From Polyangiaceae bacterium (GTDB lineage: Bacteria > Myxococcota_A > Polyangia > Polyangiales > Polyangiaceae), in assembly GCA_025937835.1 (NCBI GenBank), contig JAICQO010000007.1:62001-126000 (forward strand): a stretch of 64,000 nucleotides of DNA, in the 5' to 3' direction. The first letter of the stretch is position 1. Each line of letters opens with the position of its first letter. Shown here one piece after another: positions 29,264-34,736 of this stretch. The position numbers and the translations under genes are program-made. The notes beneath the pieces were generated by a model that worked only from the letters and a program-made list of their open reading frames with translations, did not search any database and was not told the origin of the DNA.

Positions 29264-29287
29264 TTTCGTCACAGGAAGTTCACGAAA
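29264..29287. promoter_or_regulatory. Inverted/direct-repeat element before the pst operon
   Basis: TTTCGT (29264-29269) and ACGAAA (29282-29287) are exact inverted repeats 12 bp apart, and within them GTCAC and TTCAC form a loose direct repeat about 11 bp apart. It lies 37 bp before the PhoU-fusion start, where a Pho box or other operator would sit. The match to known Pho boxes is weak. Confidence 0.3.
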
Positions 29288-29323: not shown

Positions 29324-30427
29324 GTGACCCCGTCCCACTTCGAAGAGACCCTGCAGCGAGACATCCAGCGCATCCGCGGCAAGGTTCGGGAAATGGCCTC
29401 GCTGGCGATCCTGTCCTTGAACGGGTCGATGGCGGCGCTGGCTCAGAAGAACCGCCAGCTCGCCTACTCCGTGATCCTGCGCGACCAACGGATCGACGAG
29501 CTCGAGAAGGAGATCGACCGGCTGTGCCTCGAGTTCATCGTGCGCCAGCAGCCGGTGGCAGGGACGCTGCGCTTCACGTACGCGGCGATCAAGATCAACT
29601 CCGACCTCGAGCGCGTCGGCGACTACGCCGAAAGCATGGCGCGCCAGGTCTTGAGCCTCGAAGGCGTGGAGGTGGACGTGCCGATCGAGCGCTTCGACGA
29701 GATCGCCGGGCACGCGATCCCGATGCTGCACGACGCAGTCGAAGCCTTCGTCACCCAGGACACGGCCCTCGCCAAGCGGGCCATGGAAGCCGAGGAAATC
29801 GTCGACAAGCAGCGCCACGCGCTGAACGCCGAGCTCGTCCAGCTGCGGCAGGAGCACAAGATCCCGCTCGAGTCGCTGGCGCCGCTGATGTCGATCGTGA
29901 ATCGCCTCGAGCGCGTCGGCGATCAGGCCAAGGCCATCTGTCAGGAAGTCCTGTACATGTGCACGGGCGAGTACACGAAGCACTCGGGCAGCGAGATGTT
30001 CCGCGTGCTTTTCGTGGACGAGCACAACTCGTGCCGCAGTCAGATGGCCGAAGCCATCGGCAACGCGCTCGGGCAGCCGAAGTTCGTGTTCTCGAGCGCC
30101 GGCCTCACGCGCAGCTCGCTCGATCAGACCGCCGCCAATTTCCTGGCCGGCAAGGGGATGGATCTGTCGCGCCACACCTCGAAGGGCATCGACCAGATCC
30201 CGCACCTCGACCAGTACCAGATCCTGGTCGCGCTCGCGAAAGAGGCCAAGTCGATCTTTCCGCCGCCGCCGACCAAGGCGGTGTGCCTCGACTGGTCGAC
30301 GCGCGACCCCTCGACCGTGCAGGGCACTGCCGCCGAGGTAAACGCGGCCTACGAAGAGACGTACCAGTTCTTGCGCGGGCACATCCGCGACCTGGTCGAA
30401 GCGATCCTCGGAGACAAGATCGAATGA
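29324..30427 (+). CDS. PhoU fused to a catalytically altered low-MW phosphatase/ArsC-like domain
   Basis: Residues 1-215 are PhoU, with two three-helix bundles and the metal-binding type motifs INSDLERVGDYAESMA and VNRLERVGDQAKAICQ. Residues 226-367 resemble low-molecular-weight tyrosine phosphatase/arsenate reductase: VLFVDEHNSCRSQMAEA, then FSSAG and a late LDWSTRDPS. In active enzymes the P-loop is C-x5-R; here position 232 is Asp instead of Cys, and a Cys appears at 237 just before Arg238. PhoU restrains the Pst transporter and the PhoR kinase. The start is GTG 29324. It overlaps pstS by 4 bp. Confidence 0.9.
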   Translation: MTPSHFEETLQRDIQRIRGKVREMASLAILSLNGSMAALAQKNRQLAYSVILRDQRIDELEKEIDRLCLEFIVRQQPVAGTLRFTYAAIKINSDLERVGDYAESMARQVLSLEGVEVDVPIERFDEIAGHAIPMLHDAVEAFVTQDTALAKRAMEAEEIVDKQRHALNAELVQLRQEHKIPLESLAPLMSIVNRLERVGDQAKAICQEVLYMCTGEYTKHSGSEMFRVLFVDEHNSCRSQMAEAIGNALGQPKFVFSSAGLTRSSLDQTAANFLAGKGMDLSRHTSKGIDQIPHLDQYQILVALAKEAKSIFPPPPTKAVCLDWSTRDPSTVQGTAAEVNAAYEETYQFLRGHIRDLVEAILGDKIE

Positions 30428-31311
30428 GTCGCCTCCGGCTCTCGCTGCTGTGCCTGTCGCTCGCGACGCTCTCGGCTGCGGGTTGCAAGAAGACGCAAGA
30501 GGCCGGCGCCGGCCAGGGTCTGCGCATTCAGGATATCGGGTCGGACACGATGGTGAACCTCGCCCAGGCCTGGGCCGAGGCCTACGCCGCGGTTCACCCC
30601 GAGGTCTCGGTCGAGGTCTCGGGCGGCGGCTCGGGCGTGGGCATCGCGGCGCTGATCAACGGCACCGCCGACATCGCCAACGCCAGCCGACAGCTCGAGC
30701 CCGCGGAGCTCGAGCGCGCCAGGCAGGCACGGCGAGAGCCGATCGAGCACATCGTCGGCTTCGACGGGCTCGCGATCTACGTCCACAAGAACAACCCCCT
30801 CGAGCAGATCAGCATCGAACAGCTGTCGCAGATTTACGCGGAGAACGGCAAAATCGACAGCTGGTCCGAGCTCGGGGTGAAGGTGCCCGGCGCCAAAAGC
30901 GACGAGATCGTGCGCGTCAGCCGTCAGAACAACTCCGGCACGTACGCTTACTTCCGCGAGCACGTGGTCGGGAAGAAGAGCGATTTCAAGTTCGGCTCGC
31001 TCGACATGAACGGCTCGAAGGAGGTCGTCGAGCTCGTCGGCAGGACGCCCGGAGCGATCGGCTACAGCGGCTTCGGCTACGCCACCTCCGCGGTGAAATT
31101 CCTTCGCGTCTCGAAGACCAAGGACGGACCCGGCGTGCTCCCCAGTCTGCAGACGGTGCAGGACAAGAGCTACCCGATTTCTCGACCCATGTTCATGTTC
31201 ACTCCTCCGAACCCGGCCCGGCACGTGACCGACTATTTGAGCTGGATCACCTCCGGCGCCGGGCAAAAAATCGTCGAAGCCACCGGCTACGTTCCGCTGT
31301 CGAAGGGCTGA
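30424..31311 (+). CDS. pstS: Phosphate ABC transporter substrate-binding lipoprotein
   Basis: The 295-residue protein has a lipoprotein signal (LSAAGC) and a PstS fold: IQDIGSDTMVNLAQAWAEAY, VEVSGGGSGVGIAALINGTADIA, VSRQNNSGTYAYF and PGAIGYSGFGYA are the phosphate-binding segments. It captures phosphate in the periplasm for PstCA. The ATG overlaps the stop of the PhoU fusion (ATGA). Confidence 0.95.
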   Translation: MSRLRLSLLCLSLATLSAAGCKKTQEAGAGQGLRIQDIGSDTMVNLAQAWAEAYAAVHPEVSVEVSGGGSGVGIAALINGTADIANASRQLEPAELERARQARREPIEHIVGFDGLAIYVHKNNPLEQISIEQLSQIYAENGKIDSWSELGVKVPGAKSDEIVRVSRQNNSGTYAYFREHVVGKKSDFKFGSLDMNGSKEVVELVGRTPGAIGYSGFGYATSAVKFLRVSKTKDGPGVLPSLQTVQDKSYPISRPMFMFTPPNPARHVTDYLSWITSGAGQKIVEATGYVPLSKG

Positions 31312-31319
31312 ATCCGCCG

Positions 31320-32288
31320 ATGGAAGAGGACGCGATCAAGGTCTCGCCCACGAGCACGGAGCTCGCGGAAGCGACGCCGAGCGGCCCCGAACCGCCGTGG
31401 CGCCGCCGCCCGCTCGAGGCCTATGCCGAGCTCGCGCTCGAATGGTTGATCCGGCTGTGCGGCGTGAGCGCGATCCTGTTCGTGTTCGGGATCTTCTTCT
31501 TCGTGTTCCGCGAGGGCGCGGGCATGCTGTTCGGAAAGCTGGATCTGCTACGCTTTCTGTTCACGAAGGAGTGGTATCCGACCTCGCTCAGCAACGTGCG
31601 CTACGGCGTGCTGGCGCTGATCATCGGCACCGGCAGCGTGACCGTGCTGGCGATGGCGATCGCCGTCCCGTTCGGGCTCGGCGCCGCGATCTTCGTCTCC
31701 GAGTTCTGCAGCGGCCGCGTCAAGGAGACCCTCAAGATCGTGATCGAGCTGCTCGCCGCGATCCCCTCCGTGGTCTGGGGTTTCATCGGCATTTCGGTGA
31801 TGAACCCGCTGATCCAGGAGCTGTTCGACGCCAGCATCGGCCTGAACGTGTTGAACGGCGCGCTGCTGCTCGCGCTGATGAGCGTGCCGATCATGGTCAG
31901 CATCGGCGAGGACGCCTTGAAGGCCGTGCCCGACTCGCACCGTGAGGCCGCGCTCGCGCTCGGCTCCACGCGCTGGCAGACCATCTACCGCGTGCTCTTG
32001 CCGTCGGCGAAGAACGGCCTGTTGGCGGCGGTGTTGCTGGGAGTGGGCCGGGCCGTCGGCGAGACGATGGCGGTGTTGATGGCGACCGGCCACTCCTTGA
32101 ACATCCCGCGCAGCGTGCTCGACCCGGTGCGCACGCTCACGGCGACGATCGCCGCCGAGCTCGGCGAGGCGTCGGTCGGGTCCGACCACTATCAGGTGCT
32201 GTTCGTGATCGGCATTCTGCTGTTCACCATCACCTTCTTCGTGAATCTCGCAGCTGACCTCGTGGTCAAGGGGATCAAGAAGCAATGA
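31320..32288 (+). CDS. pstC: Phosphate ABC transporter permease PstC
   Basis: A 322-residue permease with about six helices and the BPD_transp_1 EAA loop REAALALGSTRWQTIYRVLLPSA. The core IELLAAIPSVVWGFIGI and GRAVGETMAVLMATG are typical of PstC. An acidic N-terminal cytoplasmic stretch of about 40 residues precedes helix 1. It overlaps pstA by 4 bp. Confidence 0.95.
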   Translation: MEEDAIKVSPTSTELAEATPSGPEPPWRRRPLEAYAELALEWLIRLCGVSAILFVFGIFFFVFREGAGMLFGKLDLLRFLFTKEWYPTSLSNVRYGVLALIIGTGSVTVLAMAIAVPFGLGAAIFVSEFCSGRVKETLKIVIELLAAIPSVVWGFIGISVMNPLIQELFDASIGLNVLNGALLLALMSVPIMVSIGEDALKAVPDSHREAALALGSTRWQTIYRVLLPSAKNGLLAAVLLGVGRAVGETMAVLMATGHSLNIPRSVLDPVRTLTATIAAELGEASVGSDHYQVLFVIGILLFTITFFVNLAADLVVKGIKKQ

Positions 32289-33175
32289 CCACCTTCGCCG
32301 AGACCCCGTTCGTGCGCGCCAGAAAGCGCAACGAGCTTTTCGCGAAGCTCGTGTTCGGCGCGATGGCGGCGCTGCTCGTGACGCCGCTGTTGTCGATCGT
32401 GGCTTACCTGGTGATCCAGGGCGCGCCGCTCTTGTCGCTGGATTTTTTGGTCTCGAACCCGTCGAACGGGATGCGGGCGGGGGGGATCTGGTCCGCGCTG
32501 CTCGGCACGATCTACCTCGTGACCCTGTCCCTGTTGATCGCCGCGCCGATCGGCGTGCTGGCGGCTGTCTATCTGAACGAATACGCCGAAGACAACTGGT
32601 TCACGCGCGTGATCAACCTCGCGGTCGTGAACCTGGCGGGCGTGCCCAGCATCGTGCACGCGCTGTTCGGCCTCGGCGCCTTCGTGCTGGCAGCGGGCAT
32701 CGGGCGCTCGGTGCTCGCGGCGTCGCTGACGCTGTCGATCATGACGCTGCCCGTGATCATCGCCAGCACCAAGGAGGCGCTCTCGTCCGTCCCCCGCGCG
32801 TTCCGCGAGGCGTGCTGGAACGTCGGCGCCACGCGCTGGCAAACGATCCGCGGCATCGTCCTGCCGAACTCGGTGAGTGGGATCCTGACCGGCGTGATCC
32901 TGCAGGTTTCCCGCAGCGCGGGCGAAACGGCCCCGGTGATGTTCACGGGTGCGATCTTCTTCCGGCCCATCCCCGAGGGCGACCCCTTCGCCTATTCGAT
33001 CTTCGACCAGTGCATGGCGCTGTCGATGCATCTGTTTTCAGTGACGACCCAGGTCAACGGCGCGCCGCCCGCCCTGCCCTACGCGACGGCGGTGGTGCTG
33101 CTGGGCACCGTATTGGCCGTGAACGCCACCGCCATCGGCCTGCGCGTGTACCTGCGGTCGAGGAAGAAGTGGTGA
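32285..33175 (+). CDS. pstA: Phosphate ABC transporter permease PstA
   Basis: A 296-residue permease partner of PstC, with six helices and the EAA loop REACWNVGATRWQTIRGIVLP. The segment NLAGVPSIVHALFGLG and the conserved RSAGETAPVMFTGAIFF identify PstA. Its ATG overlaps pstC and its stop overlaps the GTG of the first pstB. Confidence 0.95.
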   Translation: MTTFAETPFVRARKRNELFAKLVFGAMAALLVTPLLSIVAYLVIQGAPLLSLDFLVSNPSNGMRAGGIWSALLGTIYLVTLSLLIAAPIGVLAAVYLNEYAEDNWFTRVINLAVVNLAGVPSIVHALFGLGAFVLAAGIGRSVLAASLTLSIMTLPVIIASTKEALSSVPRAFREACWNVGATRWQTIRGIVLPNSVSGILTGVILQVSRSAGETAPVMFTGAIFFRPIPEGDPFAYSIFDQCMALSMHLFSVTTQVNGAPPALPYATAVVLLGTVLAVNATAIGLRVYLRSRKKW

Positions 33176-33954
33176 GCGGCTTGGTCAGCGCGAGCGCGCC
33201 CCCGCCCAAGATCGAGGTCTCCGGCCTCGAGCTCTACTACGGCAAGAAGCGCGCGATCCACGGCATCTCCTTCGAGGTGAAAGCGCACGAGATCTTCGCG
33301 GTGATCGGCCCCGCGCAGTCCGGCAAGAGCAGCTTGCTCCGCTGCCTGAACCGCACCATCGAGTTCGTCCCCGGCGCGCAAATTCGCGGAAAAATCGCGG
33401 TAGACGGCCAGGACACGGCGCGCGTGAAGAACGTGTTCGAGCTCAGGCGGCGGATCGGCATGGTCGCTCCCCTGCCCGTCGGGTTGCCGCTCAGCATTCA
33501 CGACAACGTGGCGTTCGCTCCGCGCGCCGCCGGCCTTCGTGATCCGAAGAAGCTCGAGGAGCTGGTCGAGCGCTGCTTGCGCCAGGCCGCGCTCTGGGAC
33601 GAGGTCAAAGATCGGCTGCACAGCCTCGGCACCAAGCTCTCCGGTGGACAACAGCAGCGCTTGACGATCGCGCGCGCTCTCTCGCACCGGCCCGAGATCC
33701 TCTGCCTCGACGAGTTTTCGATCGCGATCGACCCCGTGACCACGATGCGCATCGAGGACGTGCTCAAGGAGCTGCGTCGCGAGATGACGATCGTGCTGGT
33801 CACGAACTTGGTCCAGCAAGCGCGCAGGCTCGCCGATCGCACGCTCTTCCTGTGGAACGGCGAGGTCGTCGAGTGCGACCGAAATGACGTGATTTTCTCG
33901 GAAAAACCCGGAAATCGGAAGACCTACGAGTACGTGAACGGAACGTTCGGATGA
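33172..33954 (+). CDS. pstB: PstB-like ATPase 1 (keeps LSGGQ, lacks switch His and Q-loop Gln)
   Basis: A 260-residue phosphate-transporter ATPase. Walker A is GPAQSGKSS (46-54, Lys52), the signature LSGGQ is intact (156-160) and Walker B is ILCLDE (Asp180, Glu181). The switch histidine is Asn212 (VTNLVQQA in place of VTHN) and the Q-loop Gln is replaced by Pro100 (MVAP in place of MVFQ). It overlaps the second ATPase by 4 bp. Together with ATPase 2 it is predicted to form a heterodimer whose ATP site built on its own Walker motifs is degenerate. Confidence 0.93.
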   Translation: MSGLVSASAPPPKIEVSGLELYYGKKRAIHGISFEVKAHEIFAVIGPAQSGKSSLLRCLNRTIEFVPGAQIRGKIAVDGQDTARVKNVFELRRRIGMVAPLPVGLPLSIHDNVAFAPRAAGLRDPKKLEELVERCLRQAALWDEVKDRLHSLGTKLSGGQQQRLTIARALSHRPEILCLDEFSIAIDPVTTMRIEDVLKELRREMTIVLVTNLVQQARRLADRTLFLWNGEVVECDRNDVIFSEKPGNRKTYEYVNGTFG

Positions 33955-34736
33955 CTCTCCCCGCTCGCGCCGCCCAGGGCGGCATCACCACTCGCGAGCT
34001 CAGCCTCTGGTACGGCGACTTTCAGGCCCTGAAAAGCGTCACGCTGACTCTCCAGCATGGCCTGATCACTTCACTGATCGGCCCGTCTGGTTGCGGCAAG
34101 ACCACGCTGCTCCGCTGCTTCAACCGCGTGAACGAGCGTTACGGCTACGTCACGACCCGCGGCGAGATCAAGATCCTCGACAAGAACATCTACGACGAGG
34201 ACGTCTCGCTCGAGGAGCTCCGGCGCCTGGTCGGCATGGTGTTCCAGCGCCCGAACCCGCTGCCGCTCTCGGTCTACGAGAACGTGGTGTACGGCCTGCG
34301 TATCCACAGTCCGCGCCGCGATCTCTCCAAATCGAGGCTCGACGAGGCAGTCGAGCGGTCGCTGCGCGAGGTCGGTCTGTGGGACGATCTCAAGGACCGG
34401 CTCGGGGCCAGGGCCACGGGCCTCCAGCTCGAGCAGCAGCAAAAGCTGTGCATCGCGCGGCTCCTGCCGATGAAACCCGAGGTGATCCTGATGGATGAGC
34501 CCTGTTCGGCGCTCGACGTCGAGGGCACGCGGGCCATCGAAGAGCTGATGTGGACTCTGCGGGGGAAATATACGATCGTGATCGTCACCCACAACATGGC
34601 TCAAGCCCGGCGCGCCAGCGACGAGTGCGTGTTCATGCTGCTCGGTGAAATCATCGAGCACCGGCGCACGGAAGATCTGTTCCTGCATCCGCGCGACCCG
34701 CGTACCGCCGAATACATCGAGGGCCGCTACGGCTGA
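33951..34736 (+). CDS. pstB: PstB-like ATPase 2 (keeps switch His, degenerate LSGGQ)
   Basis: A 261-residue phosphate-transporter ATPase with canonical Walker A (GPSGCGKTT), Q-loop Gln99 (MVFQ), Walker B (VILMDEP) and switch His214 (VTHNMAQA). The signature position reads LQLEQ (158-162) instead of LSGGQ, followed by QQKLCIAR, so alignment there is unambiguous. The defects are complementary to those of the preceding gene. It is followed in the same direction by the S66 peptidase. Confidence 0.93.
   Translation: MTLPARAAQGGITTRELSLWYGDFQALKSVTLTLQHGLITSLIGPSGCGKTTLLRCFNRVNERYGYVTTRGEIKILDKNIYDEDVSLEELRRLVGMVFQRPNPLPLSVYENVVYGLRIHSPRRDLSKSRLDEAVERSLREVGLWDDLKDRLGARATGLQLEQQQKLCIARLLPMKPEVILMDEPCSALDVEGTRAIEELMWTLRGKYTIVIVTHNMAQARRASDECVFMLLGEIIEHRRTEDLFLHPRDPRTAEYIEGRYG

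Follow-up and report, generated by a model that had tools for sequence, protein, structure and literature searches.

A PhoU protein fused to a putative arsenate reductase-like pseudo-enzyme in pst operons with two complementarily degenerate PstB genes

A gene in the window, the whole 64,000-nucleotide stretch of Polyangiaceae DNA analyzed here, encodes a PhoU protein fused to a domain with the fold shared by arsenate reductases (ArsC) and low-molecular-weight phosphatases (LMW-PTPs). Judged from sequence, this domain appears to be a stepwise-decayed arsenate reductase that is now a conserved pseudo-enzyme. The resolving Cys residues, the catalytic Arg and the acid-loop Asp are drifting or gone, and the fold core, Asn235, Ser239 and Asp232 are held. 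The protein is probably the PhoU of a specialized, asymmetric Pst importer, in which the C-terminal pseudo-enzyme would serve as a docking or allosteric module.

The fusion protein and its C-terminal domain

The fusion gene (29324..30427; this and all features below lie on the forward strand) is an open reading frame of 367 amino acids with a GTG start, and its two parts were identified by profile matches and in an AF2 model. The PhoU domain (residues 1-220; 29324..29983) matches TIGR02135 over residues 10-216 with 163.3 bits, above the cut-off of 130.25, contains two PF01895 stretches, and was matched by Foldseek to the PhoU structures 1t72 and 4q25. It has two E-R-V-G-D motifs (E96-D100 and E196-D200) whose Glu and Asp are invariant across 11 relatives. 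The canonical PhoU architecture consists of the repeats only; here a C-terminal PF01451 (LMWPc) domain is added (residues 225-363; 29996..30412), which scores 40.8 bits against a cut-off of 23.2 over residues 228-314. The original prediction of a PhoU joined to a low-molecular-weight phosphatase-like domain is thus borne out by both profiles, and the AF2 model agrees. Compared with the PhoU proteins of E. coli, Pseudomonas aeruginosa (4q25) and Aquifex aeolicus (1t72), the fusion shares the PhoU fold, the E-x-x-x-D motifs and the pst operon, but differs in its extra ArsC-fold domain and in gene order, being encoded at or near the operon start whereas E. coli phoU comes last.

The full-length AF2 model, built with 11 homologues as input, has a mean pLDDT of 89.7 and aligns to the PhoU structure 1t72 with a TM-score of 0.94 and to Bacillus subtilis ArsC (1jl3) with 0.88. 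Modeled by itself (pLDDT 91.7), the C-terminal domain matches 1jl3 with a Z-score of 20.9 and 1.9 Å over 136 residues, and tyrosine phosphatases rank behind it at Z-scores of about 17-18. The closest sequences of solved structure are also arsenate reductases. By fold and P-loop scaffold the domain belongs to the LMW-PTP/ArsC structural superfamily, and its closest match as modeled is thioredoxin-type ArsC, not the tyrosine phosphatases. The same fold is found in a trypanosome mitoribosome small-subunit assembly protein (chain FW of PDB 7pua, 6sga, and 9hny; Z-scores of 17-18), which is a possible precedent for a structural role.

The P-loop of the window protein (VLFVDEHNSCRSQ) has Asp232 (codon GAC, 30017..30019) at the site of the catalytic Cys of active relatives, followed by Cys237 and Arg238 (codons 30032..30037), inherited P-loop residues that drift among the fusions. 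These positions are as originally predicted. Arg238 and the acid-loop Asp328 are both intact; the resolving Cys pair is absent, with Ala305 and Phe312 in its place. The protein therefore lacks both the nucleophile of C-x5-R and the resolving pair that define an arsenate reductase, and it lacks the Cys of the C-x5-R and acid-loop Asp combination that defines an active LMW-PTP. Loss of the catalytic Cys with retention of the fold, as judged from sequence and the AF2 model, makes it a candidate pseudophosphatase, in keeping with the earlier proposal of a catalytically disabled relative of these enzymes. It resembles thioredoxin-type ArsC (B. subtilis 1jl3, Staphylococcus aureus pI258) in fold, P-loop scaffold, Trp324 and remnants of the DP loop, but differs in the replacement of the nucleophile Cys by Asp and in having neither resolving Cys; on the profile TIGR02691 the fusion falls below the cut-off (64.1 versus 174.3 bits). 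With Wzb, LMPTP and other LMW-PTPs and pseudophosphatases it shares the fold, and its loss of the catalytic Cys is that of other pseudophosphatases; it differs from them in its fusion to PhoU, in being structurally nearer ArsC and in an Asp that appears to be retained by selection.

The adjacency of Cys237 and Arg238 in the window protein could suggest an active enzyme with Cys237 as an alternative nucleophile. However, Synechocystis ArsC (2l17) reads CKRNSCRSQ over the same P-loop stretch, so Cys237 is the ordinary second Cys of the ArsC 'NSCRS' sequence, inherited rather than displaced or newly acquired as a nucleophile. Moreover, it is present in only 21 of the 52 members of the clade that carries Asp232 (the Asp clade), and a single Asp-type fusion has Cys at either resolving site (one of 50 at site 305 and one of 50 at site 312). 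This activity, which the original prediction had named as a refuting outcome, is therefore extremely improbable.

No report of a PhoU fused to an ArsC or LMW-PTP domain was found in the open-access literature, and a 2026 survey of PhoU clades considered only proteins lacking further Pfam domains (PMC13170248). A plasmid search returned no record covering 80% of the fusion. In an anti-phage library the fusion had no match, and the PstB proteins gave generic ATPase matches only. The window genome encodes a second, stand-alone PhoU, 29% identical (L002/L187, at G000:C22:10418-11068). No pst genes were recognized up to about 6 kb from it, and the genome yielded no separate ArsC of this family.

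Conservation of Asp232 and decay of the catalytic residues

Fusions were gathered by a collection scan and whole-genome searches, which gave 66 proteins after removal of duplicates. They come from five phylum-level samples: the window's phylum, Fibrobacterota (Chitinispirillaceae), candidate division KSB1, and the phyla of two further fusions (L021 and L016). The genome samples are partial and many of the genomes are metagenome assemblies; in the sample from the window's phylum, the fusion was present in 20 of 282 genomes. At residue 232 the 66 proteins have Asp (50), Cys (6), Ser (6), Gly (3) or Glu (1). Since Asp232 is conserved in aligned fusions across phyla, the possibility raised with the original prediction, that it is an isolated change, fails.

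Of the 52 members of the Asp clade, 49 retain Asp232, which is the fifth slowest of the 141 domain sites. Residues that are slow alongside it (Leu229, Phe230, Ser239, Ala242, Ser258, Ala259, and Trp324) belong to the fold core and the P-loop scaffold. The catalytic residues behave differently: Arg238 is kept in 15 of 52 members (rate rank 96th of 141) and acid-loop Asp328 in 26 (71st), and Cys237 ranks 70th. On a tree built from the full-length alignment with the P-loop columns removed, site 232 changed seven times, site 238 26 times and site 237 23 times.

These patterns bear on two readings of the pocket that had been put forward originally. In the first, the P-loop binds phosphate or arsenate without hydrolysis and reports to PhoU. 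The residues that set P-loop geometry (Asn235, Ser239, Ser258) are conserved, Arg238 and Asp328 remain in the window protein, and the operon handles phosphate, with arsenate being an oxyanion bound by ArsC. However, 37 of the 52 members of the Asp clade lack the oxyanion-clamping Arg238 and have Leu, Val, Lys, Gln, and others instead, and the three nearest relatives have Arg, Lys, and Leu. A carboxylate at the nucleophile site should, moreover, repel a dianion. An oxyanion sensor is therefore unlikely as the role of the family, even though the pocket of the window protein itself, with Arg238 and Asp328 intact, may bind an oxyanion weakly. In the second reading, Asp232 is phosphorylated; if this were as in HAD enzymes or receiver domains, the domain would act as a phospho-relay. 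Its high conservation and repeated origin would fit such a switch, but the Arg that would stabilize the phosphoryl group is not conserved, sites 233 and 234, possible metal-ligand neighbors, are fast (ranks 101 and 73 of 141), no kinase gene was recognized in the operon, and Gly (L036 and L038) and Ser (the clade of L021 and L113-L115) are tolerated at site 232. Phosphorylation of Asp232 thus found no support and is very improbable; the loss of Arg238 argues against either role across the family.

Asp232 itself arose independently at least twice, according to the tree. One fusion (L081) has Asp232 inside a sister clade that otherwise has Cys or Gly, and forcing it into the main Asp clade was rejected (AU p 7e-6). 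The data are compatible with one origin for all 52 members of the Asp clade (p 0.37) but do not prove it. As Asp232 is slow within its clade and has re-arisen in L081, selection appears to hold the Asp itself, beyond the mere loss of Cys.

The domain could also be a passenger, left over from an old PhoU-ArsC fusion and decaying for want of any present role. Catalytic residues do decay stepwise, and the domain evolves somewhat faster than the PhoU part (mean site rate 1.32 versus 0.97). Nevertheless, it is kept with its core intact in five phylum-level groups, Asp232 is held while neighboring sites drift, and in the two closest Asp-type pairs its dN/dS is 0.12 and 0.18 (0.07 and 0.10 for the PhoU part). 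These values come from the two close pairs alone, as most pairs have saturated synonymous sites or a dN nearly equal to dS. Such low ratios point to purifying selection on the domain in those pairs, and the passenger reading is decidedly unlikely.

The fusion set would record, within one operon, the steps from an active-looking arsenate reductase to a phosphatase-like form and on to a Ser, Gly, or Asp pseudo-enzyme. At one end, L006 combines C-x5-R, the acid-loop Asp and Cys at both 305 and 312 (VTLCKEAEDTCP), the full arsenate reductase set on a PhoU. L025 and L026 keep C-x5-R and the Asp and are missing the resolving Cys. The nucleophile is lost in L080 (Gly), L081 (Asp), the Ser clade (L021, L113-L115) and the Asp clade. 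The L006 (G034)/L139 fusion has the P-loop LCRRNACRS and a DP sequence, occurs in the operon type with two PstB genes, and, from its residues, is possibly an active reductase. On the tree of the ArsC-like domain, stand-alone ArsC proteins of related genomes group with separate fusions (L133, L134, L037, L040, and L042), and this group adjoins the Cys-type fusions. The five separate fusions lie in operons with one PstB and without the PstB motif losses described below. These separate fusions make it probable that PhoU was joined to an ArsC-like domain on more than one occasion. Two strongly diverged fusions (L188 and L189) have the P-loops ADAGDG and TDPGDG. The two ABC ATPases encoded after each of them do not score as PstB, and no PstS, PstC or PstA was found nearby.

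The pst operon and its paired ATPases

Downstream of the fusion gene, and overlapping it by ATGA, lies the gene for the phosphate-binding protein PstS (30424..31311; TIGR02136, 230.6 bits versus a cut-off of 206.6). It is followed by the permease genes pstC (31320..32288) and pstA (32285..33175) and by two ATPase genes, pstB1 (33172..33954) and pstB2 (33951..34736). PstS, PstC, PstA, and PstB, the components of a Pst importer, are therefore encoded in one operon, although both PstB proteins fall under the TIGR00972 cut-off of 343.2 bits (274.9 and 316.8). Nearly all Asp-type operons readable at full length have either this order or PstS-fusion-PstC-PstA-PstB1-PstB2, and the order with PstS before the fusion marks a second Asp-type clade.

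The two ATPases have lost different motifs. Of the two window proteins, PstB1 retains the Walker B Glu and has LSGGQQQR as its ABC signature but lacks the Q-loop Gln and the H-loop His; in PstB2, Walker A and B, Q-loop and H-loop are intact and the signature reads LQLEQQQK. The motifs were read in 45 operon loci for PstB1 and 42 for PstB2. PstB1 keeps its signature in all 45 (LSGGQQQR in 44, ISGGQQQR in one) together with the Walker B Glu (LDEF); none of the 45 retains the Q-loop Gln, and Asn replaces the H-loop His in each of the 44 readable cases. In PstB2 the signature is LxL[E/D]xQQK in 42 of 42 and never LSGGQ, whereas GPSGCGK[ST], VFQRP (42/42), the DEP Walker B and the H-loop His (41 of 41 readable) are kept. 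Five single-PstB sequences used for comparison have canonical motifs, one with the signature as LSGGQAQR. The degenerate PstB pair accompanies the fusion in more than one phylum.

Heterodimeric ABC transporters have one consensus site and one degenerate site from complementary losses. The PstB pair displays such complementary losses in two ATPases; if the two form a heterodimer, the losses would all be gathered in one composite site, with the other unaffected. TM287/288, BmrCD, and TAP are known examples of one consensus site paired with one degenerate site. Those proteins are exporters, whereas the present case is a putative Pst importer whose ATPases are separate subunits, both with the catalytic Glu. 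Two pstB genes with one Pst importer are known from B. subtilis (PstBA/PstBB; PMC11466899) and, as adjacent genes, from Enterococcus faecalis, where PstB1 and PstB2 both have all canonical motifs, including LSGGQ (PMC12096839). In contrast to the E. faecalis proteins, the pair described here is complementarily degenerate and accompanied by an ArsC-fused PhoU; no degenerate PstB pair was found reported in the open-access literature.

When the 282 genomes of the window's phylum were searched with PstB2, 11 matches scored at least 338 bits, all in fusion-bearing genomes. The PstB2 type was thus detected in 11 of 20 genomes with the fusion and in none of the 262 without it (Fisher p 9e-15, although the genomes, being related, are not independent samples). 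Direct reading showed the LxLE-type signature in ten of the 11 (all but G266), and the next matches, at 309 bits and below, have LSGGQ wherever the signature was read. Among the nine fusion genomes without a PstB2-type match, at least some have a single PstB or an operon ended by a contig edge.

Direct repeats resembling Pho boxes, near the PhoB consensus, lie upstream of L013, L014, L138, and L140 and score 12/14, at or just above the shuffle maximum. Upstream of the window fusion, the repeat at 29266-29283 (TCGTCAC-N4-AGTTCAC) scores 9, like shuffled sequence, and hence is not claimed as a Pho box of the operon. The L140 genome (G220) has two neighboring pst operons, one of the two-PstB type with a Cys-type fusion and one that resembles the E. 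coli operon and contains a second PhoU fusion; PhoB-like regulators are encoded at both. At L159, L161, L162, and L149 the fusion is closely preceded by a gene for a stand-alone PhoU, with PhoR-like genes nearby in three of the four.

Proposed role in a putative asymmetric importer

In the proposed mechanism, the PhoU of an asymmetric Pst importer would carry a pseudo-enzyme descended from thioredoxin-type arsenate reductase. In active enzymes the Cys thiolate and the oxyanion are held by a P-loop hydrogen-bond network; here the Asp232 carboxylate would take the place of the thiolate, so that the empty P-loop could stay folded and ordered without a ligand. Asn235 and Ser239, which we take to be counterparts of the known LMW-PTP P-loop Asn and Ser, are among the residues retained. 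The domain would then be a constitutive docking or allosteric module helping PhoU to engage the asymmetric ATPase pair. ATP would be hydrolyzed by PstB2 with the help of the LSGGQ of PstB1, and ATP binding would be the main activity of the other site. In this way PhoU would gate import and report phosphate flux to a PhoR-type kinase.

Because a pocket without a conserved Arg would be a poor phosphate sensor, the domain is most likely a protein-protein module by which PhoU could grip the asymmetric motor. A docking or regulatory function is inferred here; synteny with the PstB pair does not in itself amount to physical contact. Catalysis is not incompatible with the operon, as L006, L025, and L026 keep C-x5-R in the same operon type.

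The operon suggests that the machinery for phosphate uptake and sensing has a variant not yet described. There is about an even chance that it represents a new class of phosphate importer found in several phyla, in which an asymmetric pair of PstB1 and PstB2, with one consensus and one degenerate ATP site, is matched by a dedicated PhoU; the arsenate reductase captured by this PhoU would have become an Asp-locked pseudo-enzyme that senses or sets the state of the motor. If true, a degenerate-site ABC phosphate importer would extend a feature best studied in exporters. How PhoU reads Pst importer activity and informs the sensor kinase is a long-standing question, and the contact between PhoU and the ATPase may be easier to locate where the importer has just one active ATP site and PhoU bears an additional domain.
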